In this document: positions 6,739-20,787 of the stretch, in pieces
Numbering within the stretch: the stretch's first letter is position 1
Layout: every line of letters starts with the position of its first letter
From: Belliella alkalica
GTDB lineage: Bacteria; Bacteroidota; Bacteroidia; Cytophagales; Cyclobacteriaceae
Length of the DNA: 49,601 nt
NCBI RefSeq assembly: GCF_022549785.1
Contig: NZ_JAKZGO010000004.1
Span: forward strand, 1-49,601
Direction of reading: 5' to 3'
The notes under the pieces: model-generated
Databases searched by the model: none
The model's input: only the letters and a program-made list of their open reading frames with translations
Told to the model about the DNA's origin: nothing
Position numbers and translations under genes: made by a program

Positions 6739-7308
6739 TTATTCGCTTTTTGGAAGTACTACTGTATCTATAGAATGGATTACACCATTTGACTGATACA
6801 CATCAGCGATTGTTACTTTTGACTGATTGCCATTTTCATCTGAGATATAAAGGTCTTTTCCTTTCATCCATGCAGTCAGCTTACCACCTTGTACTGTTGT
6901 CAAAGTAGCTTTTCCATTGCCTTTTTTGATAGCTGCAGCGATTTCTTTTGATCCCATTTTTCCAGCTACCACATGATAAGTCAAAATTGAAGTAAGTGTA
7001 GCCTTGTTTTCTGGTTTTACCAAACTTTCTACGGTGCCAGCAGGAAGTTTTTCAAAAGCGGCATTGTCTGGAGCGAATACGGTAAATGGTCCAGGTGTCT
7101 GTAAAGTTTCTACCAAACCTGCTGCTTGAACGGCTGCTACCAGAGTAGTATGATCTTTAGAGTTAACTGCATTTTCCACGATGTTTTTAGAAGGATACAT
7201 TGGAGCACCACCTACAGTTACAGTTTTTTCACTTTGAGCAAACGCCAGGGTTGATCCTAGAAAAAACATGGCTAAAAATGCTGATTTGAATAAATTGATA
7301 GTTTTCAT
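6739..7308 (-). CDS. Secreted fasciclin (FAS1) domain protein
   Basis: The 189-residue protein has an Ala-rich signal peptide (cleavage after AFAQ near 25) and one FAS1 domain. The H1 and H2 boxes are clear: [17 protein letters not shown], then LTYHVVAGK, then a C-terminal NGVIHSIDTVVLP. FAS1 domains mediate adhesion or matrix contacts, and some bacterial ones are surface or exopolysaccharide proteins. The spacer between signal and domain (about 26-50) carries a VENAVNSKDHTTL stretch leading into helix 1. It is transcribed alone, with a terminator on its 3' side shared with the barrel gene. A related single-domain protein is encoded at 34643-35146. Confidence 0.92.
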   Translation of the reverse strand: MKTINLFKSAFLAMFFLGSTLAFAQSEKTVTVGGAPMYPSKNIVENAVNSKDHTTLVAAVQAAGLVETLQTPGPFTVFAPDNAAFEKLPAGTVESLVKPENKATLTSILTYHVVAGKMGSKEIAAAIKKGNGKATLTTVQGGKLTAWMKGKDLYISDENGNQSKVTIADVYQSNGVIHSIDTVVLPKSE

Positions 7309-7492
7309 AATTCTAAATTTTTGGTTTGTTTATTTGGGTGGAATTACGTTAAACATGGTTGCCTTGGATTGGCACATTTTTACATTTTTTATTTTTCCAC
7401 CATACTGTAATGGTAATCTTACATGTCTATTTACACCAAAGCTCCTCTGTGTGTTCTTTTAAAAAAATATCTAAACTAGAAGAATTGAAAAT

Positions 7493-11867: not shown

Positions 11868-12467
11868 TCAAATCGCCAACCTCCTCACTTCTTCATATCG
11901 AAAGCAATCTACAAGGTGGTCATTAACCAAGCCGGTGGCTTGCATATGCGCATAGATAGTGGTGCTTCCCAAAAACTTAAAGCCTCTTTTCTTGAGGTCC
12001 TTAGAAAGTTTATCAGACTCCGCAGTTGTAGCTGGTGCATTTTGCAATGAATCTAGCTGCCTATCAATAACCTTCCCATCTACAAAATCCCAAATGTAAT
12101 TGGAAAAAGATCCAAATTCACTTTGGATTTCCATGAATTGTTTGGCATTGTTGATTGCAGCTTCGATTTTGAGTTTGTTGCGGATGATGCTTGGGTCTTG
12201 CAGCAGCTCTGTGACATATGATTCTGGCATATCTGCAACTATTTTGTAATCAAAATCAGCAAAAGCTTTTCTGTAACCTTCCCTTTTCTTCAAGATTGTA
12301 GCCCAGCTAAGTCCTGCTTGTGCGCTCTCTAATATCAAAAATTCAAAATGTACCTTGTCATCGAACACTGGCACACCCCATTCTTCGTCATGATATTTCA
12401 CATATTGCTCAAACCCCATGCACCAAGGGCAACGAATCTTGTTTGGATCATGTGGTAAGATTGACAT
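11868..12467 (-). CDS. tag: DNA-3-methyladenine glycosylase I
   Basis: A 199-residue base-excision enzyme that removes 3-methyladenine from DNA. The structural zinc ligands of Tag are in place: Cys13 (RCPWC), His26 (KYHDEEWG), then H and C in the C-terminal NDHLVDC. The central FEFLILESAQAGLSWATIL with the catalytic Glu is typical. The start is set at the ATG at 12465-12467, right before MSILPHDPNKIRCPW. A longer frame reaching 12560 overlaps tspO and adds unrelated residues. It is the last gene of a leftward unit DUF4286-tspO-tag, eight bases after the tspO stop. Confidence 0.94.
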   Translation of the reverse strand: MSILPHDPNKIRCPWCMGFEQYVKYHDEEWGVPVFDDKVHFEFLILESAQAGLSWATILKKREGYRKAFADFDYKIVADMPESYVTELLQDPSIIRNKLKIEAAINNAKQFMEIQSEFGSFSNYIWDFVDGKVIDRQLDSLQNAPATTAESDKLSKDLKKRGFKFLGSTTIYAHMQATGLVNDHLVDCFRYEEVRRLAI

Positions 12468-12475
12468 ATAAATTC

Positions 12476-12940
12476 TTAATTTAAATACCAAATACTTGCA
12501 TTGAGAACAGTAGCGAAACTTACCCACAGGAAGTAAGGTATCATTAAAATTGATGCCCATTTTTGGATTGGGAAGAATATTTTAATGCATACTAGAATAC
12601 TTATCCATAGCGGTACAATTATGATTAGCCCCATTAATGGTGACTCAAGTCCAAAAAATGCAGGTGACCAAAGTGCATTTAAAAATACTTGTAAGCCAAA
12701 AACGGCAATGGCTTTTTTCATCATTGGATGTTCTGATTTCCAAATTAGGAAAAGAGCAACCCCCATTAATATATAGAGGATTGTCCAAGTTGGTCCAAAT
12801 ACAGAAGATGGAGGGTTGAAACTGGGTTTTTCAATTATTGTATACCAAGTTAATACCTTTGGGACTGTGAATGTAGCACCTACTAAGCCAATTATCTGTA
12901 GTAGAAGAATACACAGGATAAGTTTAACAAAGTTTATCAT
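12476..12940 (-). CDS. tspO: TspO/MBR family membrane protein (translocator protein homologue)
   Basis: 154 residues with five hydrophobic helices, the fold of tryptophan-rich sensory protein / mitochondrial translocator protein. Hallmarks: WYTIIEKPSFNPPSSVFGPTWTILY in helix 1-2, NALWSPAFF in helix 3, and the C-terminal YFLWVSFATVLNASIWYLN. TspO binds and can photo-degrade porphyrins, and in Rhodobacter it controls pigment gene expression in response to oxygen and light. Here it lies about 400 bases from a divergent carotenoid operon with a B12-type light regulator, so a link with photo-oxidative stress is plausible but inferred. It starts one base after the DUF4286 stop. Confidence 0.95.
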   Translation of the reverse strand: MINFVKLILCILLLQIIGLVGATFTVPKVLTWYTIIEKPSFNPPSSVFGPTWTILYILMGVALFLIWKSEHPMMKKAIAVFGLQVFLNALWSPAFFGLESPLMGLIIIVPLWISILVCIKIFFPIQKWASILMIPYFLWVSFATVLNASIWYLN

Positions 12941-12941
12941 A

Positions 12942-13244
12942 TCAGACTTGCTCTAGTAAAGTCATAAAAATGGCTAATTTTCTCGGGAATTTTTTCTGTA
13001 CCAAAGCATTATGTGCGTCAAAGTACTTATTCTGATATGTCATGACCAAATCCATATTTTTTGCGAAAAATTGGACTGAATAATTTATGCCTCCATCTTC
13101 AGAATCGTGCATAATTCTAAACATCTTGTTTTCTTCAAACATCTTGGTCTCCATAATAAAAGGGATGTGTGTATCTTTCATCCATGTCAGCCATTCTGCT
13201 TCCACGTCCTTTTCCACATTGACTGTGATATTATATAAAATCAT
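12942..13244 (-). CDS. DUF4286 family protein
   Basis: A 100-residue soluble protein. The opening MILYNITVNVEKDVEAEWLTWM and the DTHIPFIMETKMF segment are typical of DUF4286, a short ferredoxin-like (dimeric alpha-beta barrel) family widespread in Bacteroidota. No function is known. It is the first gene of the leftward unit with tspO (one base between stop and start) and tag. Its start faces the cruF start across 113 bases, so the two units share one divergent promoter region. Confidence 0.85.
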   Translation of the reverse strand: MILYNITVNVEKDVEAEWLTWMKDTHIPFIMETKMFEENKMFRIMHDSEDGGINYSVQFFAKNMDLVMTYQNKYFDAHNALVQKKFPRKLAIFMTLLEQV

Positions 13245-13357
13245 ATATTTATATTTAGTTTTGTACCGCTATCTATTGAACAAATAACAATTGTCAAAGT
13301 TGATTTTACAGCAATTGTTGATATTAAACATTAAAATATTCACAAACGTTTTTATCC
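13245..13357. promoter_or_regulatory. Divergent control region between DUF4286-tspO-tag and cruF-crtZ-carH
   Basis: The 113-base AT-rich gap carries the word CAATTGT twice (13288-13294 and 13312-13318, 24 bases apart). It also has ATTAAACA at 13323-13330, the complement of part of a word repeated in the ECF operon promoter. No clear TAnnTTTG box was found for either direction. A regulator site here would act on both tspO and the carotenoid hydratase unit. The repeats are seen; their role is inferred. Confidence 0.4.
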
Positions 13358-14026
13358 ATGCATAAAAAACATACTCAAAATTACGTAAAAGATTATTTTT
13401 TTACGAAAGTTAATATTTTTAAATTTATTATCACTGTTTTTCATTTAGTTGGATTGTTAGGGATGGTCATTCCCGATCTAAGAGTTTACTTTCAGTTTTT
13501 GACACCTTTTCATTTATTGTTATGTACTTCTTTACTTTTTTATTTTCACAAGGATTGGAGTTTCTCCTTCTACCTATTTACTGTTTTGGCATTTGGATTA
13601 GGATATGGATCTGAAGTACTAGGGGTGCATACTGGATTTCCTTTTGGAAGTTATACTTATGGACCAGTTTTGGGCTTTCAATTGTTTGAAGTTCCATTGT
13701 TGATAGGGATTAATTGGTTGTTGTTAGTTTATATAAGTGGAGAAGTTTTTCACAAAAAGATTAAAAATGATTACCTAGCAGCATTTTCAAGTGCTATTAT
13801 AATGGTTTTATTGGATGTTTTGATAGAGCCTGTAGCTGTAAAACTCGATTTTTGGTCTTGGGAGAATGATTTAATTCCTGCCTCCAATTTTGTAGGGTGG
13901 CTAGGAGTTGCCTTTCTCATTCAGTTGATTTACAGAAAATCAAATTTTATCAAAATAAATCCACTTTCTTTATATTTGTTATTTAATTTGGCAGCTTTCT
14001 TTTTACTGCTCAATATATTGCTATAG
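13358..14026 (+). CDS. cruF: Carotenoid 1,2-hydratase CruF-type membrane protein
   Basis: 222 residues, six to seven hydrophobic helices, of the 'carotenoid biosynthesis protein' family (PF04240). That family includes cyanobacterial/Deinococcus CruF (gamma-carotene 1',2'-hydratase) and haloarchaeal hydratases. The family blocks are clear: GYGSEVLGVHTGFPFGSYTYG with the conserved E and H, then PLLIGINWLLLVY, then LLDVLIEPVAVKLDFWSW. It adds water across the 1',2' double bond at the acyclic end of the carotenoid. It is the first gene of a unit with crtZ (53-base gap) and the B12 regulator. The neighbouring monocyclic-type pathway fits gamma-carotene or its derivatives as substrate; this is inference. 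Confidence 0.87.
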   Translation: MHKKHTQNYVKDYFFTKVNIFKFIITVFHLVGLLGMVIPDLRVYFQFLTPFHLLLCTSLLFYFHKDWSFSFYLFTVLAFGLGYGSEVLGVHTGFPFGSYTYGPVLGFQLFEVPLLIGINWLLLVYISGEVFHKKIKNDYLAAFSSAIIMVLLDVLIEPVAVKLDFWSWENDLIPASNFVGWLGVAFLIQLIYRKSNFIKINPLSLYLLFNLAAFFLLLNILL

Positions 14027-14079
14027 TATCAGGTCGTGTTATATTAATAAACAAAGTTGTACAAAAAGAAGTTAAACAA

Positions 14080-14520
14080 ATGATGTACGCAGTCCTTTAT
14101 ATTATATTAGGCTTTTCCATAATGGAATTTTCTGGTTGGTTCATACACAAATACATTATGCATGGGCCTTTATGGAATATCCATAAAACACATCATCAAG
14201 CATCAAAATCATTCTTTGAACTGAATGACCTGTTTTCTTTGCTGTTTGGTAGTATTGCAATCGTACTGATTGTAATTGGATTTAATCAGTTTGATTACAG
14301 ATTTTGGATGGGTGTGGGGATCAGTTTATATGGTATGAGTTATTTCTTCCTTCATGATGTATTGATTCATCGGAGAGTGAAATGGTTTGAAAGACCGAAG
14401 AACTATTTCTTGAGGGGAATATTCAAAGCACATCAGGCACATCATGCAACCAATAAAAAAGAAGATGCTGTCTCTTTTGGTTTATTCATAGTACCCAAAA
14501 AATATTTTAAAGCAAAATGA
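14080..14520 (+). CDS. crtZ: Beta-carotene 3-hydroxylase CrtZ
   Basis: 146 residues, membrane-bound non-heme di-iron hydroxylase that adds the 3-OH to the beta-ionone ring. All four histidine clusters are visible: HKYIMH (Hx4H), HKTHH (HxxHH), HDVLIH (Hx4H) and HQAHH (HxxHH). The length is that of compact Bacteroidota CrtZ (bacterial CrtZ are about 145-180). Its ATG is the first of two methionine codons, at 14080. The stop overlaps the start of the MerR regulator by four bases (ATGA, 14517-14520), so hydroxylase and light regulator are translationally coupled. Confidence 0.95.
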   Translation: MMYAVLYIILGFSIMEFSGWFIHKYIMHGPLWNIHKTHHQASKSFFELNDLFSLLFGSIAIVLIVIGFNQFDYRFWMGVGISLYGMSYFFLHDVLIHRRVKWFERPKNYFLRGIFKAHQAHHATNKKEDAVSFGLFIVPKKYFKAK

Positions 14521-15419
14521 ACGTGAGTACCTATTCAATTAAAGATCTGGAACAGCTGTCGGGAATCAAAGCGCATACTTTGAGGATATGGGAACAACGA
14601 TACAACTTGCTAAGTCCCAAACGAACGGATACAAATATTAGATTTTATGATGACGACGATTTAAAGTTGATTTTAAATGTCGCGTTACTGAATGACAATG
14701 GTTTCAAAATTAGCAAAATCGCTAAGATGAATATCAAAGAAATCAGAGAAGAAGTCGTGAAATTGACGGAAAGAACTCTTACCCATGACGATCAGATACA
14801 TGCACTTACTATCTGTATGATTGAGATGGACGAGGAGAGATTTGATAAAGTTCTTTCAACCAATATCTTGAAAATTGGTTTTGAGCAGACAATGTTGAAT
14901 ATAATTTATCCCTTTATGTCCAAGATCGGGGTTCTGTGGCAAACTGGAGCTATCAACCCTGCCCAAGAGCACTTTATAAGTAATCTGGTCAGACAAAAGC
15001 TCATAGTTGCTATAGATGGTCAAGTTTATAAAGGTGGTGGAAAAAAATTCTTGCTATTTCTACCAGAAGGGGAACTGCATGAAATATCCCTACTTTTTGC
15101 TGCATATCTGATAAAGCTTAAAGGACACAAGGTGTTTTATCTAGGTCAAAGTACGCCAAAGGCGGACTTAGAGTTGATATACAAAATGCATCAACCAGAT
15201 TATCTAATGACTGTAATCACTACAGCTCCTGGTGCTGATCAAGTTGAGGAATACATTAACTTCCTGTCATCTAATTACAAAGATTCTGAATTAATTGTTT
15301 CTGGCTATCAAATATTAGGGCAAGATTTTAAATTCCAAGACAATGTTAGAGTAATGAACTACATAAGAAATATAAAAGAGTATCTAGAAGAACTAGACCA
15401 AGTTTATCAAGAGAAATAG
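14517..15419 (+). CDS. carH: CarH/LitR-like MerR transcription regulator with B12-binding photosensory domain
   Basis: 300 residues. Residues 5-55 are a MerR winged helix (YSIKDLEQLSG, then HTLRIWEQRY and a DTNIRFYDDDDL wing). A four-helix B12-cap domain spans about 85-165. A Rossmann-type B12-binding domain follows from about 175. The photoreceptor signature W-x9-EH is exact (Trp141, Glu151, His152), and ELHEI provides the lower-ligand His188, as in CarH and LitR. Those proteins repress carotenoid genes in the dark as adenosylcobalamin-bound tetramers and let go when light breaks the Co-C bond. It overlaps crtZ by four bases and lies directly before an ECF sigma factor and the main crt operon. 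Light control is inferred from the motif, which many B12-independent MerR relatives lack. Confidence 0.9.
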   Translation: MNVSTYSIKDLEQLSGIKAHTLRIWEQRYNLLSPKRTDTNIRFYDDDDLKLILNVALLNDNGFKISKIAKMNIKEIREEVVKLTERTLTHDDQIHALTICMIEMDEERFDKVLSTNILKIGFEQTMLNIIYPFMSKIGVLWQTGAINPAQEHFISNLVRQKLIVAIDGQVYKGGGKKFLLFLPEGELHEISLLFAAYLIKLKGHKVFYLGQSTPKADLELIYKMHQPDYLMTVITTAPGADQVEEYINFLSSNYKDSELIVSGYQILGQDFKFQDNVRVMNYIRNIKEYLEELDQVYQEK

Positions 15420-15446
15420 TTCACCAAAAATAATAAAAAATTAAAC

Positions 15447-15468
15447 AGACCTCAGGGTCTTTTTTTTT
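15447..15468 (+). terminator. Terminator of the cruF-crtZ-carH unit
   Basis: AGACC and GGTCT form a five-bp stem around a TCAG loop (15447-15460), followed by eight T. It begins 28 bases after the regulator stop and separates this unit from the sigma-crt operon. Confidence 0.8.
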
Positions 15469-15479
15469 GACTAAATACG

Positions 15480-15489
15480 TGTATATACA
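15480..15489. promoter_or_regulatory. 10-bp palindrome upstream of the sigma-crt promoter
   Basis: TGTATATACA is a perfect palindrome about 95 bases before the predicted -33 box. It is a possible regulator site, but short AT-rich palindromes also occur by chance. Confidence 0.3.
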
Positions 15490-15544
15490 TCCAAAACAAA
15501 GATTTTAATAGATATTGATGGATTTCGTCATTCCTAGTTTTTAT

Positions 15545-15599
15545 TTTGTTTAATAAAAAATGAAAAAAATTACACAAAAAGTTTTGCGCTTTGTTTAAT
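15545..15599. promoter_or_regulatory. Direct repeats TTTGTTTAAT flanking and inside the sigma-crt core promoter (candidate CarH operator)
   Basis: The ten-base word occurs at 15545-15554 and again at 15590-15599, start to start 45 bases, about four helical turns. The second copy lies in the spacer between the predicted -33 and -7 boxes. A bound repressor there would block RNA polymerase. Thermus CarH is known to bind direct repeats overlapping its promoter. Binding by the regulator encoded next door is inference only. Confidence 0.4.
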
Positions 15600-15613
15600 C
15601 ATTTATATATTTG
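15583..15613 (+). promoter_or_regulatory. Bacteroidota-type promoter of the sigma-crt operon
   Basis: TTTG at 15583-15586 and TATATTTG at 15606-15613 with a 19-base spacer fit the primary-sigma consensus of this phylum (TTTG, 19-21 bases, TAnnTTTG) exactly. The start of transcription would be near 15617-15620, about 17 bases before the ATG at 15635. This rules out the TTG at 15611 as a start codon because it lies inside the -7 box. Confidence 0.75.
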
Positions 15614-15634
15614 ATTCAACAAAAACAAAATGCC

Positions 15635-16147
15635 ATGACAACTCTAGAATTCAGTTATTCACTTAATAAGCTCTCTAGCTCTTTGAAGCCATTTGCTTTG
15701 AAATTGACAAGAGACATGGATGATGCAAATGACCTAATGCAAGATACTATGGTTAAGGCTTTCACCAATAAGGATAAATTTACAGAAGGTACAAACTTGA
15801 AAGCATGGTTATACACTATCATGAAAAATACCTTTATTACCAATTATCAAAGGATGGTGAGAAGAGGTACTTTTGTAGATACTACTGACAATCTGCATTA
15901 TATCAATTCAGGAGATATTTTGGTTGAAAATGGAGCATATGGAGATTTTACCATGGATGATATACATAGTGCCATTGAGGGTCTAGATGATGTTTACAAA
16001 AGTCCATTCATGATGCATTACAGAGGATTCAAATACCATGAGATAGCTGAAAAATTAGATATACCTATTGGTACTGTAAAAAACAGAATACATATTGCAC
16101 GTAAAATATTAAAAGACGATCTTCACGTGTACAGACACAAAAATTAA
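15635..16147 (+). CDS. ECF-type RNA polymerase sigma factor heading the carotenoid operon
   Basis: 170 residues from the ATG at 15635. Region 2 is FALKLTRDMDDANDLMQDTMVKAF with the helix that contacts the -10 element, followed by NLKAWLYTIMKNTFITNYQR. Region 4 holds YRGFKYHEIAEKLDIPIGTVKNRIHIARKILKD, a helix-turn-helix for the -35 element. No anti-sigma factor gene is adjacent, so control is more likely at the level of its transcription by the B12-type regulator just upstream. It is followed by crtI after only four bases. Its regulon is unknown; by analogy with Streptomyces LitS or Myxococcus CarQ it may direct light-induced genes. The operon's own promoter looks like a primary-sigma one. Confidence 0.9.
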   Translation: MTTLEFSYSLNKLSSSLKPFALKLTRDMDDANDLMQDTMVKAFTNKDKFTEGTNLKAWLYTIMKNTFITNYQRMVRRGTFVDTTDNLHYINSGDILVENGAYGDFTMDDIHSAIEGLDDVYKSPFMMHYRGFKYHEIAEKLDIPIGTVKNRIHIARKILKDDLHVYRHKN

Positions 16148-16151
16148 TAAC

Positions 16152-17633
16152 ATGTCCAAAAAAAATGTTGTAGTTATAGGGGCTGGCTTTGCTGGCCTTT
16201 CTGCTGCTACACACCTTGCAAAGCAAGGCTATAATGTAACTCTTCTCGAAAAAAATAGTACCCCCGGTGGACGAGCTAGAAAGTTCGAGATCGAGGGTTT
16301 TGTTTTTGATATGGGGCCTAGCTGGTATTGGATGCCAGATGTCTTTGACACTTATTTTTCCCATTTTGGCAAGAAAAGTTCTGATTATTATGATCTTTTA
16401 AGGTTAGACCCATCATACACAGTGATTTTTGGGGATAATGACTTTGTGGATATACCTGCAAACCTAGATGAGTTCAGAGCGCTTTTGGAAACATTGGAGC
16501 CTGGAGTTGGTCCAAAATTAGACGAATTTCTGAATCAAGCTGCCTATAAATACAAAGTAGGAATTCAAGATTTGGTGTACCGTCCAAGTAGATCTTTATT
16601 GGAATTTGCTAGTCCTAAGTTACTCATGGACATGCTTAGGATGGATATTTTTCAATCCATGTCAAAACATGTACGCAAGTTTTTCAAAGAAGACAAGATC
16701 ATCCGTTTGATGGAGTTTCCGGTTTTATTCCTCGGAGAAACTGCCAATAATATTCCCGCACTTTATTCCTTGATGAACTATGCTGATATAGCTTTGGGGA
16801 CTTGGTATCCTAAAGGTGGCATGCACAAAATTATTGAAGGAATGGTAAATTTGGCCAAAGAAAAAGGTGTTAGATTCCACTTTGATGCCGAAGTTTCAAA
16901 AATTAACATCCAAGATGGCAGGGCAACATCTGTATCTACTTTAGATGGGAATGAGTATCAAGCAGATGTTGTAGTCGCTGGAGCAGATTACAACCATATC
17001 GATAGGCATGTCCTCGAAGACAAATACAGCAACTATGACGACAAGTACTGGGACAACCGTGTCATGGCACCTGGTAGTCTATTGTTCTATCTTGGGATCA
17101 ACAAAAAACTAAAAAATCTACGGCATCACAATTTGTTCTTCGATGAACCACTTGGACCACATGCCGATGCAATATATACAAACCCACGATGGCCTGAAAG
17201 ACCGTTGTTTTATGCGTCAGTACCATCCATCACTGATCCAACGGTAGCTCCAGAAGGAAGTGAAAACTTATTTTTGCTTGTTCCGCTAGCTCCAGATCTG
17301 GAAGATTCTGAAGAAATGAGGGAGAAGTATTATAATATGATCATGGACAGACTTGAGAAATTAACTGGACAAGAGATTAGGAGCCATGTGATTTATAAAC
17401 GATCTTATGCTCACAGTGATTTCAAATCAGATTATCATGCATTCAAGGGCAACGCTTATGGTCTCGCAAATACTTTGTTGCAAACAGCCATATTAAAACC
17501 TTCTTTGAAGAATAAAAAAGTAAAAAACCTCTATTATACTGGCCAACTTACCGTGCCAGGACCAGGGGTTCCACCATCTCTGATTTCTGGACATGTAGTA
17601 GCCAAAGAAGTGATCAAAGAAAACAATTTGTAA
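16152..17633 (+). CDS. crtI: Phytoene desaturase CrtI
   Basis: 493 residues, FAD-dependent enzyme that desaturates phytoene, normally through four steps to lycopene. The N-terminal dinucleotide fold is VVVIGAGFAGLSAATHLAKQG, continuing to LLEKNSTPGGRARKF and FDMGPSWYWMPD. The C-terminal FAD signature is NLYYTGQLTVPGPGVPPSLISG. The length is typical of bacterial CrtI. It is the only CrtI/CrtD-like gene in the window. A second desaturase for the 3',4' bond, if the pigment is flexixanthin, must be elsewhere or this enzyme must do both jobs. It sits four bases after the sigma factor gene and 21 bases before crtB. Confidence 0.96.
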   Translation: MSKKNVVVIGAGFAGLSAATHLAKQGYNVTLLEKNSTPGGRARKFEIEGFVFDMGPSWYWMPDVFDTYFSHFGKKSSDYYDLLRLDPSYTVIFGDNDFVDIPANLDEFRALLETLEPGVGPKLDEFLNQAAYKYKVGIQDLVYRPSRSLLEFASPKLLMDMLRMDIFQSMSKHVRKFFKEDKIIRLMEFPVLFLGETANNIPALYSLMNYADIALGTWYPKGGMHKIIEGMVNLAKEKGVRFHFDAEVSKINIQDGRATSVSTLDGNEYQADVVVAGADYNHIDRHVLEDKYSNYDDKYWDNRVMAPGSLLFYLGINKKLKNLRHHNLFFDEPLGPHADAIYTNPRWPERPLFYASVPSITDPTVAPEGSENLFLLVPLAPDLEDSEEMREKYYNMIMDRLEKLTGQEIRSHVIYKRSYAHSDFKSDYHAFKGNAYGLANTLLQTAILKPSLKNKKVKNLYYTGQLTVPGPGVPPSLISGHVVAKEVIKENNL

Positions 17634-17654
17634 ATAAAATTGTATATTAATAGT

Positions 17655-18497
17655 ATGGATGCAAAAGCCCTCTTTGATCAAACCACTTTTGAGTGCAGCA
17701 AGCTGATCACCCAAAGATACAGCACAAGTTTTACTCTTGGAATCAAAACTCTTGACCGAAAATTTCACATGCCTATATATGCTATCTATGGATTTGTGAG
17801 GTATGCAGATGAGATCGTAGATACATTTCACGATTATGATAAAAAAGCCTTGCTAGAGTTGTTCAAAAAAGATACCTATAAGGCAATTAGCGAAAGAATA
17901 AGTTTGAATCCAGTACTTCATGCATTTCAGATCATTGTTAATCAGTATAAAATTGATCTAGAATTAATAGAAGCCTTTTTATATAGTATGGAAATGGACT
18001 TGGATTTCAACACTTATAATGATACAAAATACAATGAATATATATACGGCTCTGCAGAAGTAGTTGGTCTGATGTGTTTGAAAGTGTTTTGTGAAGGTGA
18101 TGAAAAAAACTATGACCGCCTCAAATCTCCGGCATGTAAACTGGGTGCGGCATTTCAGAAAGTTAATTTTCTGAGAGATATCAAGAGTGATTATGAAGAG
18201 AGAGGTAGAGTGTATTTCCCTGGAGTTGACTTCATGACATTTGACAAATCAGCCAAACAACTGATAGAAGAAGATATCCAAAAAGATTTTGATGAATCAC
18301 TAATTGGAATAAATAATTTGCCCGAAGGTGCGAAAATGGGCGTCAAAGTAGCTTATCTATATTACCAAAAGCTGTTTGACAAAATCAGGTCATTGCCTCC
18401 TGAGACTATAACAAAAGAAAGAGTCAGAATTCCGAATTCTAGAAAAATGTCGCTCTTGCTGAGTACTTACTTTGTTATGAAACTGGGCTTGGCTTAG
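17655..18497 (+). CDS. crtB: Phytoene synthase CrtB
   Basis: 280 residues, condenses two geranylgeranyl diphosphates into phytoene. The two Asp-rich Mg-diphosphate sites are present: YADEIVDTF, and the QKVNFLRDIKSDYEERGRVYFP block, which matches the second squalene/phytoene synthase signature. The ATG at 17655 is preferred over a TTG at 17640, which would add five residues and leave no ribosome-binding room after crtI. The stop is three bases before crtYcd. No GGPP synthase (crtE) gene lies in the cluster, so the substrate comes from a prenyl synthase elsewhere. Confidence 0.95.
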   Translation: MDAKALFDQTTFECSKLITQRYSTSFTLGIKTLDRKFHMPIYAIYGFVRYADEIVDTFHDYDKKALLELFKKDTYKAISERISLNPVLHAFQIIVNQYKIDLELIEAFLYSMEMDLDFNTYNDTKYNEYIYGSAEVVGLMCLKVFCEGDEKNYDRLKSPACKLGAAFQKVNFLRDIKSDYEERGRVYFPGVDFMTFDKSAKQLIEEDIQKDFDESLIGINNLPEGAKMGVKVAYLYYQKLFDKIRSLPPETITKERVRIPNSRKMSLLLSTYFVMKLGLA

Positions 18498-18500
18498 ATC

Positions 18501-19211
18501 ATGGAAAAATATCTCTACTTATTTATTAATTTGTTAACCATATCATTTCCTCTTCTGAGATCTTTTGAAAACAGGGTTCATTATGCCAAAAATTGGTATG
18601 CATTGTTTCCTGCAATATTGCTTACAGGCGTTTTTTTTCTTATTTGGGATCATTGGTTTACTGTGATCGGAGTCTGGGAATTTAATCCAAGATACCTCTT
18701 GGGAATTTATTTTTTTGAGCTGCCATTAGAAGAATGGCTCTTTTTTCTGACTGTTCCATTTGCCTGTATTTTTATTTATGAAGTGTTAAATTACTTTGTG
18801 GAAAAAGACCTATTTGCTCCAATTGTAAAATCAGCAACACTTTCCTTGGTTATACTATTTCTAATCATTGGCTTTTATAATTTGGACAAGTGGTACACAT
18901 CTGTAAATTTCCTTCTTGCAGCAATTATCCTTTCCTTTCATTATATCCTTTTTAAAGGAAGGTACCTTGGGAGGTTTTTTCTTACTTATTTGGTTTCACT
19001 GATTCCATTTATATTGGTAAATGGAGTATTGACAGGGTCATTTATCGACGAGGCGGTGGTGAAGTATAATGACTCAGAAAATTTATCAATAAGAATCCTT
19101 ACAATACCAATAGAAGATACTGTATATTCGATGATATTACTTCTGATGAATATTAGTATCTATGAGAAGATAAAAAGTATGAAAACAATTCATTCAACTT
19201 CAAGTTTATAG
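18501..19211 (+). CDS. crtYcd: Lycopene beta-cyclase, fused CrtYc-CrtYd (heterodimer-type) membrane protein
   Basis: 236 residues with about six or seven hydrophobic helices arranged as two tandem 'lycopene cyclase domain' units. The first carries the key motif PLEEWLFF (with IWDHWFTVIGVWEFNP before it) and the second PIEDTVYSMILLLMNI. This corresponds to the CrtYc and CrtYd subunits of actinobacterial cyclases joined in one chain, as found in many Bacteroidota. It forms beta-rings from lycopene. Whether it cyclises one end or both cannot be read from sequence; the cruF gene nearby argues that at least part of the product is monocyclic. Gaps to crtB and ispH are three bases each. Confidence 0.92.
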   Translation: MEKYLYLFINLLTISFPLLRSFENRVHYAKNWYALFPAILLTGVFFLIWDHWFTVIGVWEFNPRYLLGIYFFELPLEEWLFFLTVPFACIFIYEVLNYFVEKDLFAPIVKSATLSLVILFLIIGFYNLDKWYTSVNFLLAAIILSFHYILFKGRYLGRFFLTYLVSLIPFILVNGVLTGSFIDEAVVKYNDSENLSIRILTIPIEDTVYSMILLLMNISIYEKIKSMKTIHSTSSL

Positions 19212-19214
19212 CTT

Positions 19215-20060
19215 ATGATGAATCTTCAAGTACATATAGATCAGCATTCCGGATTCTGCTTTGGTGTAGTCTATGCCATAGAAATGGCTGAGGAAATATT
19301 AGATGAGCAGGGGTACTTGTATTGTCTTGGAGACATTGTCCACAATGATGAAGAAGTAAATAGGCTTACCAATAAAGGTCTTAAAATCATCAATCATGAT
19401 GAGCTTCAAGTTTTGAAAAATGAAAAAGTCTTGATCAGGGCGCATGGGGAGCCACCTTCTACTTATGAACTTTCCATAAAAAACAACCTCACCCTGATCG
19501 ATGCTAGCTGTCCGGTAGTATTGAAGCTCCAAAATAGAATTAAGAACTCATTTGATAAGAAAGAGACCATTTATATATACGGCAAGCATGGACACGCCGA
19601 AGTGGTAGGACTTTTGGGACAAACCAACAATGAGGCAGTAGTCTTTCAAGATATATCAGAATTGGATCTTCCGAGCCTTCCTAAAAACTTAACCCTCTAC
19701 AGCCAAACTACAAAAAGCACAGATAAATTTTACGAGATCAATGCTATCCTGAAGGAAAATGACATTACCGTAAACACCAATGATACTATATGTCGTCAGG
19801 TATCAAATCGCGACAAAGAGCTTAGAGCTTTTGCTGAAAAATTCGATAAAATCATTTTTGTAAGTGGTACTAAGTCTTCTAATGGGAAGGTATTGTACAA
19901 TGTTTGTAAGGAAAAAAATCCAAACACACATTTTGTGTCCAACCAAGATCAAGTCAGTCCTTCATGGTTTTCTCCAAATGATACAGTTGGCATATGCGGT
20001 GCCACATCCACTCCAATGTGGCTAATGGAACAAGTTAAAGAAAGATTGAGTAAGTTTTAA
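19215..20060 (+). CDS. ispH: 4-hydroxy-3-methylbut-2-enyl diphosphate reductase IspH (LytB)
   Basis: 281 residues, the last enzyme of the MEP pathway, making IPP and DMAPP with a [4Fe-4S] cluster. The three cluster cysteines are in GFCFGV, DASCPVV and GICGATSTP. Substrate-binding motifs are RAHGEPP, YGKHGHAEVVG, SQTTKS, NDTIC and SGTKSSNG. The frame begins with two ATG codons (19215 and 19218). Sitting inside the crt operon, it would raise isoprenoid supply together with pigment synthesis. That suggests either the sole copy expressed with pigment or a second, dedicated copy. Confidence 0.96.
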   Translation: MMNLQVHIDQHSGFCFGVVYAIEMAEEILDEQGYLYCLGDIVHNDEEVNRLTNKGLKIINHDELQVLKNEKVLIRAHGEPPSTYELSIKNNLTLIDASCPVVLKLQNRIKNSFDKKETIYIYGKHGHAEVVGLLGQTNNEAVVFQDISELDLPSLPKNLTLYSQTTKSTDKFYEINAILKENDITVNTNDTICRQVSNRDKELRAFAEKFDKIIFVSGTKSSNGKVLYNVCKEKNPNTHFVSNQDQVSPSWFSPNDTVGICGATSTPMWLMEQVKERLSKF

Positions 20061-20091
20061 GTTGCGAATTAATTTTCTCTAAATTTGCCTC

Positions 20092-20787
20092 GTGTCCAAT
20101 ACTATAAGCCATACAAATTCAATAGATCCTAAAGGAATCATAATTGCTTTTTCTGTAATTGCTCTATGGTGTGCATCTTTGGTTTTTCTATTGAGTTTCA
20201 ACTTGAATTGGTCCAATCCTATTACTTATTTGGGTGTTTTAGTTCAAACACACCTTTACACAGGGCTTTTCATCACTTCACATGACGCAATGCATGGGTT
20301 GGTTTCAAAAAACAAAAAACTGAACCACACGATAGGCTGGTTTACTGCAATCTTGTTTTCTTACAATTTTTATTGGAAACTATTCCCAAAACACCACGAG
20401 CATCACAAGTATGTGGCCACTGACAAAGATCCTGACTATCATCATTCTGACAATTTCTTTCTTTGGTATTTTAGTTTTATAAAGCAATATGTTTCGATAT
20501 GGCAGATACTTCTTATGGCTGTCACATTCAATATTCTAAAGCTATTTCTTCCAACAGAAAATCTGATCATTTTCTGGATGTTGCCAGCAGTTTTGGCTAC
20601 TTTCCAGTTGTTTTATTTCGGTACTTACAGACCACATATGGGTGAATCTGAGAATATTCACCATTCTAAAACACAATCAAAAAACCATATTTGGGCATTT
20701 TTGTCCTGTTACTTTTTTGGATATCATTTTGAACATCACGATTCTCCTGGCACCCCATGGTGGAGGCTTTGGAGGCTGAAAGATTAG
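20092..20787 (+). CDS. crtW: Beta-carotene 4-ketolase CrtW
   Basis: 231 residues, membrane fatty-acid-desaturase-like di-iron enzyme that inserts the 4-keto group in the beta-ring. Histidine boxes: HDAMH (with GLFITSHDAMHG before it), HHEHH followed by DPDYH, and HFEHH followed by PGTPWW. FYFGTYRPH near residue 180 is a CrtW-specific block and separates it from CrtR and ordinary desaturases. The start is a GTG at 20092; there is no in-frame ATG between it and the ispH stop 31 bases upstream. It is the last pigment gene of the operon. Together with crtZ it would give a 3-hydroxy-4-keto ring, as in flexixanthin. Confidence 0.92.
   Translation: MSNTISHTNSIDPKGIIIAFSVIALWCASLVFLLSFNLNWSNPITYLGVLVQTHLYTGLFITSHDAMHGLVSKNKKLNHTIGWFTAILFSYNFYWKLFPKHHEHHKYVATDKDPDYHHSDNFFLWYFSFIKQYVSIWQILLMAVTFNILKLFLPTENLIIFWMLPAVLATFQLFYFGTYRPHMGESENIHHSKTQSKNHIWAFLSCYFFGYHFEHHDSPGTPWWRLWRLKD

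Follow-up and report, generated by a model that had tools for sequence, protein, structure and literature searches.

A CarH-type regulator, an ECF sigma factor, and carotenoid genes in Belliella alkalica: sequence comparison of a predicted two-tier light circuit

Organization of the carH–ECF–crt locus

The window (the whole stretch of DNA analyzed, positions 1 to 49,601 of the forward strand of contig NZ_JAKZGO010000004.1; 49,601 bp) came from Belliella alkalica (family Cyclobacteriaceae) and contained a carotenoid (crt) locus, in which the gene of a predicted CarH/LitR-type photoreceptor regulator (carH) was followed by that of an extracytoplasmic function (ECF) sigma factor. The analysis of this locus was a sequence comparison. 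The genes displayed the order cruF–crtZ–carH, terminator, ECF–crtI–crtB–crtYcd–ispH–crtW, with a TonB-type receptor gene in the last place:

13358..14026, + strand, cruF-like carotenoid biosynthesis gene (PF04240)
14080..14520, + strand, crtZ-like hydroxylase gene (PF04116), overlapping the start of carH
14517..15419, + strand, carH, predicted CarH/LitR-type MerR-B12 photoreceptor regulator (W141, Q142, E151, H152, and H188; Pfam, alignment, and model)
15447..15469, + strand, intrinsic terminator (stem plus T-run)
15635..16147, + strand, ECF sigma factor gene (Sigma70_r2 and Sigma70_r4_2 by Pfam), neighbors without anti-sigma gene
16152..17633, + strand, crtI, phytoene desaturase, named from sequence and context without Pfam
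17640..18497, + strand, crtB, phytoene synthase, named from sequence and context without Pfam
18501..19211, + strand, crtYcd, lycopene cyclase (PF18916)
19215..20060, + strand, ispH, one of two genomic copies
20092..20787, + strand, crtW-like ketolase gene of the fatty acid desaturase family (PF00487)

The original prediction, made from the letters of this DNA, had described a terminator directly after the regulator gene, an ECF sigma factor without an anti-sigma gene, and crtI–crtB–crtYcd–ispH–crtW behind it, and all three were recovered: the terminator-like stem spanned 15447-15460 (mean of 0.0 in shuffled sequences), the window gene list and Pfam gave no anti-sigma gene among the neighbors of the ECF gene, and the five genes followed on the same strand. 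The genes cruF (13358) and crtZ (14080), upstream of carH, were additions to that description. ATG at 15635 was the likely start of the ECF gene; the alternative TTG at 15611 would overlap an operator candidate (see below).

The comparison was extended to 80 loci of relatives fetched via carH similarity, the closest among the matches listed being that of Belliella calami (93% identical). An ECF gene lay within 1.5 kb downstream of carH in 69/80 loci, and the remaining 11 comprised (i) four cut by contig ends (L050, L071, L076, and L081) and (ii) seven uncut loci (L057, L059, L064, and L070 from Cyclobacterium, plus L077 to L079). Genome G123 (CarH 73% identical) had carH and the ECF–crt operon on separate contigs, with the operator beside ECF (L236). 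In the loci of family f7, which we presume to be Flavobacteriaceae, crtI–crtB–crtZ often stood directly 3′ of carH with no ECF gene between.

The N terminus of the regulator was a MerR-type helix-turn-helix (HTH) domain (PF13411, 59.9 bits); Pfam also reported a B12-binding_2 domain and, at E 1e-3, did not report the Rossmann-domain model PF02310. The predicted structural model displayed a four-helix bundle plus a Rossmann B12-binding domain like those of CarH. The residues W141, E151, H152, and H188 aligned with W131, E141, H142, and H177 of Thermus thermophilus CarH, giving the Wx9EH cap motif and, as G185-E-L-H188, the lower axial ligand motif GxxH; all four SignatureFinder motifs (GxxW, EH, GxxH, and GxxxP; PMC11796333) were present, as read from alignment columns. 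The residue pattern claimed for the regulator thus stood, but the word "exact" did not, because Gln142 replaced His132, the residue beside the Trp in Thermus that makes the bis-His photoproduct (Gln in 89/92 and Leu in 3/92); no His occurred at this position in 40 CarH copies from a phylum-wide sample. An adenosyltransferase gene was present in the Belliella genome. Assignment of the regulator to the CarH / class I LitR type was supported by residues and predicted fold. That its signal is coenzyme B12 supply or redox instead of light, or that it acts independently of B12 like CarA, appears very unlikely: Gln142 takes away the second His ligand, but the regulator retains the lower ligand and the residues of the cap, the predicted targets (see below) are largely light-related, and in a CarH-like protein with Arg at the His132 position illumination still converts the tetramer to monomers (PMC11796333). 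MliR, a MerR regulator of Bacteroidota, was dropped as a rival, as it lacks an effector domain (PMC9478572).

Candidate inverted-repeat operator and its distribution

Two 34-bp inverted repeats of the pattern TTTGTTTAA-N16-TTAAACAAA were found in the sigma promoter, that is, around the promoter that had already been proposed ahead of the ECF gene:

15545..15578, + strand, predicted distal operator, TTTGTTTAAT-N14-ATTACACAAA (alignment of relatives, scans)
15583..15613, + strand, Bacteroidota housekeeping-type promoter, TTTG-N19-TATATTTG (read by eye; conservation in relatives)
15590..15623, + strand, predicted proximal operator, TTTGTTTAAT-N14-ATTCAACAAA, overlapping the -7 element

The promoter elements, TTTG at 15583-15586 and TATATTTG at 15606-15613, were borne out by the relatives, with TAnnTTTG upstream of ECF in 68/71 and the full pair TTTG-N17-22-TAnnTTTG in 47/71. 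An alignment of 68 carH–ECF spacers (the window plus 67 loci with ECF >60% identical and spacer <600 bp) displayed TTTGTTTAAT-N14-ATTAAACAAA twice, at a distance of about 44-45 bp: (i) the proximal copy scored at least 17/20 in 67/68 spacers, L073 being the exception, and (ii) the distal copy scored at least 15/20 in 62/68, the exceptions being L046, L056, L058, L060, L061, and L073. Little conserved pattern was found within the spacer of the repeat, in sites that were chosen by arm score and hence had arm conservation built in. The predicted operator consisted of inverted repeats around a nearly uninformative spacer and not of tandem 11-bp direct repeats; CarH operators as published are 11-bp direct repeats in tandem, nAnnTnnACAn (PMC8156234), the core of which, TnnACA, is also the half-site core of the predicted operator, but inverted.

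The proximal repeat was centered on the -7 element, the position expected of a repressor site. MerR proteins are frequently activators, and the regulator could conversely activate the sigma promoter in a light-dependent manner, like LitR of Streptomyces. For LitR, a promoting effect on the transcription of litS after light has been described (PMC12705666). We consider an activator unlikely here, since the center of the proximal repeat falls on the -7 element and not in the -33/-7 spacer, both elements look intact with normal spacing, and at rhodopsin promoters (see below) the left arm of the repeat overlaps TAnnTTTG in 13 of 26 loci, which is likewise repressor geometry.

The exceptional locus L073 (10001-10843) belonged to a metagenome-assembled genome of Cyclobacteriaceae; its CarH had Tyr for the lower-ligand His and Leu for the Pro of GxxxP, and its sigma promoter repeats were decayed (best 15/20), a state in which B12 sensing may have been lost naturally.

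A scan of the 4.95-Mb Belliella genome with TTTGTTTAA-N16-TTAAACAAA at one mismatch gave four sites (control pattern, one): the pair in the sigma promoter, one before PTPS–folE (folE for GTP cyclohydrolase I), and one ahead of a rhodopsin gene, behind which lay a CrtY-type lycopene cyclase gene. The rhodopsin carries the DTE proton-pump pattern, as read in its sequence. Rhodopsin homologues at E 1e-30 were present in 47/148 genomes of the family, and the best 30 loci had the repeat at -107 to -117 in 26 cases, the 26 considered above, and at -40 in one more. Among the best 30 PTPS loci, the repeat stood at -60 to -62 in 21 and within 300 bp (at least 16/20) in 24; owing to A/T-rich register shifts, spacings of 13 and 15 also gave a score of 16 there, in 18 loci apiece. 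The predicted CarH regulon would therewith extend past crt to rhodopsin and PTPS–folE. An initial scan, the pattern of which differed slightly, gave two further sites with two mismatches at G000:C1:138037-138070 and G000:C73:92433-92466 (L087 and L088). The photolyase-family genes of the Belliella genome (L095 to L097, without repeat) and a crtD candidate (L099, with neither operator repeat nor sigma motif) were rejected as targets.

The repeat was then compared with CarH status across genomes. CarH was found in 128/148 family genomes, and of 96 genomes selected by CarH status, 80 were scanned: (i) 22 with CarH of at least 76% identity had 80 sites (control 3), (ii) 18 with CarH of 62-73% had 43 (control 2), (iii) 20 with CarH of 39-52% had 27 (control 2), and (iv) 20 without CarH had 5 (control 4). 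Among 392 Bacteroidota genomes (the phylum sample; CarH called at E 1e-15), the 90 with CarH had 182 sites versus 14 for the control, with at least one site in 62/90, and the 302 without CarH had 14 versus 16, with at least one site in 13/302. In genus g93, all 22 CarH carriers had 1-8 sites and the three non-carriers had none. The repeat thus showed strong associations with the regulator, although these counts are not independent trials because the genomes are related. Within 40 CarH neighborhoods of the phylum sample (313 kb), 14 of 15 sites of at least 16/18 lay upstream of carH, ECF, or crtI at a distance of up to 300 bp; these near sites fell in 11/40 loci, whose CarH was 36-58% identical.

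These counts bear on the idea that the repeat is the site of a different regulator, of light or oxidative-stress responses, that travels with CarH, the true CarH site lying elsewhere. It draws on the 28/90 phylum carriers with no site at one mismatch and on target neighbors (FAS1, superoxide dismutase, and peroxiredoxin) that would also suit an oxidative-stress regulator; control-level counts in CarH-less genomes, near sites adjoining carH or its neighbor genes in loci of such divergent CarH, and the TnnACA core shared with published CarH sites (PMC8156234) argue against it and make it improbable.

Candidate targets in relatives, named by Pfam or by sequence reading, were collected from 40 stretches fetched around phylum-sample sites and two carH neighborhoods, of which 38 held 41 sites of at least 17/18. 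These faced ECF (6), FAS1 (5), rhodopsin (4, three genes), NAD-epimerase–DUF2867 (2), and one each of PTPS, flavin reductase, short-chain dehydrogenase/reductase, heme oxygenase/PAS protein, superoxide dismutase, MsrA, and peroxiredoxin genes; three sites lay within genes, and the others faced other or unassigned genes. A possible second PTPS site was in L369, 398 bp from a partial frame. In a further 18 stretches, picked as unexplained sites or CarH/rhodopsin neighborhoods, a site adjoined FAS1 in four (L229, L231, L232, and L234) and flavin reductase–photolyase in one (L228); L235 was rejected as an FAS1 target and left uncounted, as its site lay behind that gene.

Three side observations concern such targets. 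The window itself carried an FAS1 gene at 6739-7308 (- strand, PF02469) and just upstream of it, at 7325-7357, a degenerate inverted repeat TTTGTTTAT-N15-TTAAACATG, which may be a weak CarH site given that FAS1 genes bear the full repeat in several relatives. Genome G445 had ten operator sites, those in L339, L340, and L343 standing beside peroxiredoxin, MsrA, and superoxide dismutase genes. In L360, an operator was flanked by a heme oxygenase gene on one side and, on the other, by a gene that was read as encoding a PAS-like sensor, a layout that suggests a link to bilin-based light sensing.

Sigma-type motif and the proposed circuit

A second motif, AACA-N16/17-GTT, which we read as an ECF promoter (-35 AAC and -10 GTT), was found at three places in the window:

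13279..13302, + strand, ECF-type promoter candidate of cruF, AACA-N16-GTTG (63/72 loci)
14050..14074, + strand, ECF-type promoter candidate of crtZ–carH, AACA-N17-GTTA (64/71 loci)
19184..19207, + strand, ECF-type promoter candidate of ispH, AACA-N16-GTTT, within the 3′ end of crtYcd (55/65 loci)

To these counts, for the form GTT[AGT], PTPS added 20/30; the stricter form GTT[AG] occurred at cruF in 61, at crtZ in 55, and at ispH in 28 loci and never upstream of ECF, crtI, crtB, crtW, TonB, Omp, TspO, or glycosylase genes. The background per promoter was 0.010 (GTT[AG], 120 bp) to 0.020 (GTT[AGT], 130 bp), and other spacings were rarer, the largest count for cruF and crtZ being N13 with 7/72 at cruF. 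The motif was absent upstream of TspO (0/44) and occurred at scattered places in 4/30 rhodopsin promoters. In most motif-bearing PTPS loci, the AACA of the motif formed the right arm of the inverted repeat, so that CarH and sigma inputs would meet there.

Presence before cruF, crtZ–carH, ispH, and PTPS–folE and absence from the sigma operon are as expected of sigma targets. Sigma autoregulation was rejected, ACA-N16/17-GTTTA being found upstream of ECF in 6/71. The sigma factor might instead only boost its own operon, with AACA-N16/17-GTT read by another sigma factor, which we regard as possible though doubtful: the motif was not found at the promoter of the sigma operon itself, but it marks the pathway genes away from that promoter (cruF, crtZ, ispH, and PTPS), and its count at crtI, crtB, and crtW is zero. 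The second ispH copy of the genome was located at G000:C18:10653-11510, and the copy in the crt locus lay behind the sigma-type motif, placed as if light raised isoprenoid supply.

The best reading of these data is a cascade from photoreceptor to ECF sigma factor to crt genes, both steps of which are supported, as far as sequence goes, by the predicted operator and the sigma motif; the LitR-like cascade of the original prediction is thereby retained with conserved motifs added, and its confinement to crt is given up for a wider regulon. In the two-tier light circuit that we consider probable, a CarH-type repressor-photoreceptor loaded with adenosylcobalamin (AdoCbl) would sit on the inverted repeats in the dark, block RNA polymerase, and repress the sigma–crt operon, rhodopsin, and folE. 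Green or blue light would split the Co–C bond and free the promoters, upon which the sigma factor, CrtI, CrtB, CrtYcd, IspH, and CrtW would be made; the sigma factor would then transcribe cruF, crtZ–carH, more ispH–crtW, and PTPS–folE, and rhodopsin would be under direct CarH control without it. Since carH is a predicted sigma target, CarH would be rebuilt, and this negative feedback would make the response self-limiting.

Several points weigh against this circuit. At the protein, Gln142 stands where Thermus has His132, and the Thermus H132A variant is reported to remain mostly tetrameric. At the operator, (i) the known CarH repeat is direct and the predicted one inverted; (ii) besides the 28 siteless phylum carriers, 8/60 CarH carriers of the family sample had zero sites, and 29/40 phylum CarH loci had no near site at 16/18; (iii) many CarH-less family genomes are incomplete, and the genomes share kinship, so that the Fisher values do not give probabilities for independent events; (iv) the L087 and L088 sites of the initial scan equalled the rhodopsin site at two mismatches; (v) six of the 30 PTPS loci (L137, L140, L153, L156, L159, and L162), all from genomes with CarH, had no repeat within 300 bp; and (vi) the three photolyase-family genes of the Belliella genome had no repeat within about 1.5 kb. 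The sigma motif was spotted by eye in the same loci in which it was then counted, and it also occurred in 13/71 DUF4286 and 2/79 carH upstream regions (DUF4286 and cruF share one upstream region).

With confidence only a little above even, CarH of Bacteroidota may be seen as a global light regulator that has direct control over rhodopsin phototrophy and likewise governs carotenoids, FAS1 proteins, the synthesis of pterins, and genes linked to photolyase. Its operator would be a pair of inverted repeats, and its light switch would be independent of His132, the ECF relay being inserted in Cytophagales-type lineages and direct control being kept in the family f7 lineage.

Relation to known systems and flanking genes

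Sensor–sigma–crt cascades are already known from Streptomyces, where the B12-based photoreceptor LitR controls the sigma gene litS, which feeds a crt promoter (PMC12705666); a like relation is predicted here from adjacency, operator, and motif, but in Belliella the sigma gene is the first gene of the crtIB operon, sigma-type promoters precede cruF, crtZ–carH, ispH, and PTPS, and carH itself is a predicted sigma target. With CarH of Thermus thermophilus and Myxococcus, the AdoCbl photoreceptor repressor of crt genes, the regulator shared the MerR HTH, the Wx9EH four-helix cap, the lower-ligand His in the Rossmann domain, crt linkage, and a (here predicted) operator over the promoter; it differed in Gln for His132, in predicted 34-bp inverted instead of 11-bp direct repeats, in its predicted action via an ECF gene, and in a predicted regulon including rhodopsin and PTPS–folE. 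CarQ of Myxococcus xanthus is likewise an ECF sigma factor of light-induced carotenogenesis (PMC8156234) but is held by the anti-sigma factor CarR, a gene type lacking at the Belliella locus. Class II LitR proteins of Pseudomonas (PplR/PmlR) resemble the Belliella system in having paired sites, T(G/A)TACA-N12-TGTA(C/T)A, and in the induction of photolyase, folE, and folM genes by light (PMC9758184), but their B12 region is reduced to the four-helix part and their core centers are 18 bp apart, versus 24 bp in Belliella.

Within Bacteroidota, the identical gene order has been published for an Echinicola cluster with merR and rpoE, to which the extract of PMC8683446 gives no light role (the word "light" has no matches in that paper). 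For flavobacteria, two of them with proteorhodopsin, published crt clusters have a MerR gene within or ahead of them. Light-induced carotenoids are described in one Bacteroidota species, Chryseobacterium lacus, in which neither car nor lit genes were found by the authors (PMC7064467). The best-ranked literature matches included no report of a CarH operator, CarH function, or rhodopsin control in Bacteroidota. An Algoriphagus crt cluster was reportedly treated by Tao in 2006. As far as the searches show, four features are new: the inversion of the operator, the link of this operator to rhodopsin, PTPS–folE, and FAS1 genes, the set of sigma-type promoters, and the lack of His132 throughout the phylum sample.

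The interest of the finding lies in its connection to rhodopsin. Control of proteorhodopsin expression in flavobacteria was left as a matter for further work in PMC3587595, and the question of rhodopsin regulation becomes testable with a candidate sensor, a sigma relay, and a predicted 34-bp operator whose position ahead of rhodopsin genes is fixed. If the circuit holds, phototrophy would be tied to B12 supply, natural CarH proteins without His132 would enter the debate on the switch mechanism, and the operator layout would differ from that of Thermus CarH.

Beside cruF, the window contained a divergent DUF4286–TspO–DNA-3-methyladenine glycosylase block (11868-13244, - strand), present whole or in part in many relatives; TspO proteins elsewhere are tied to light or porphyrin responses.

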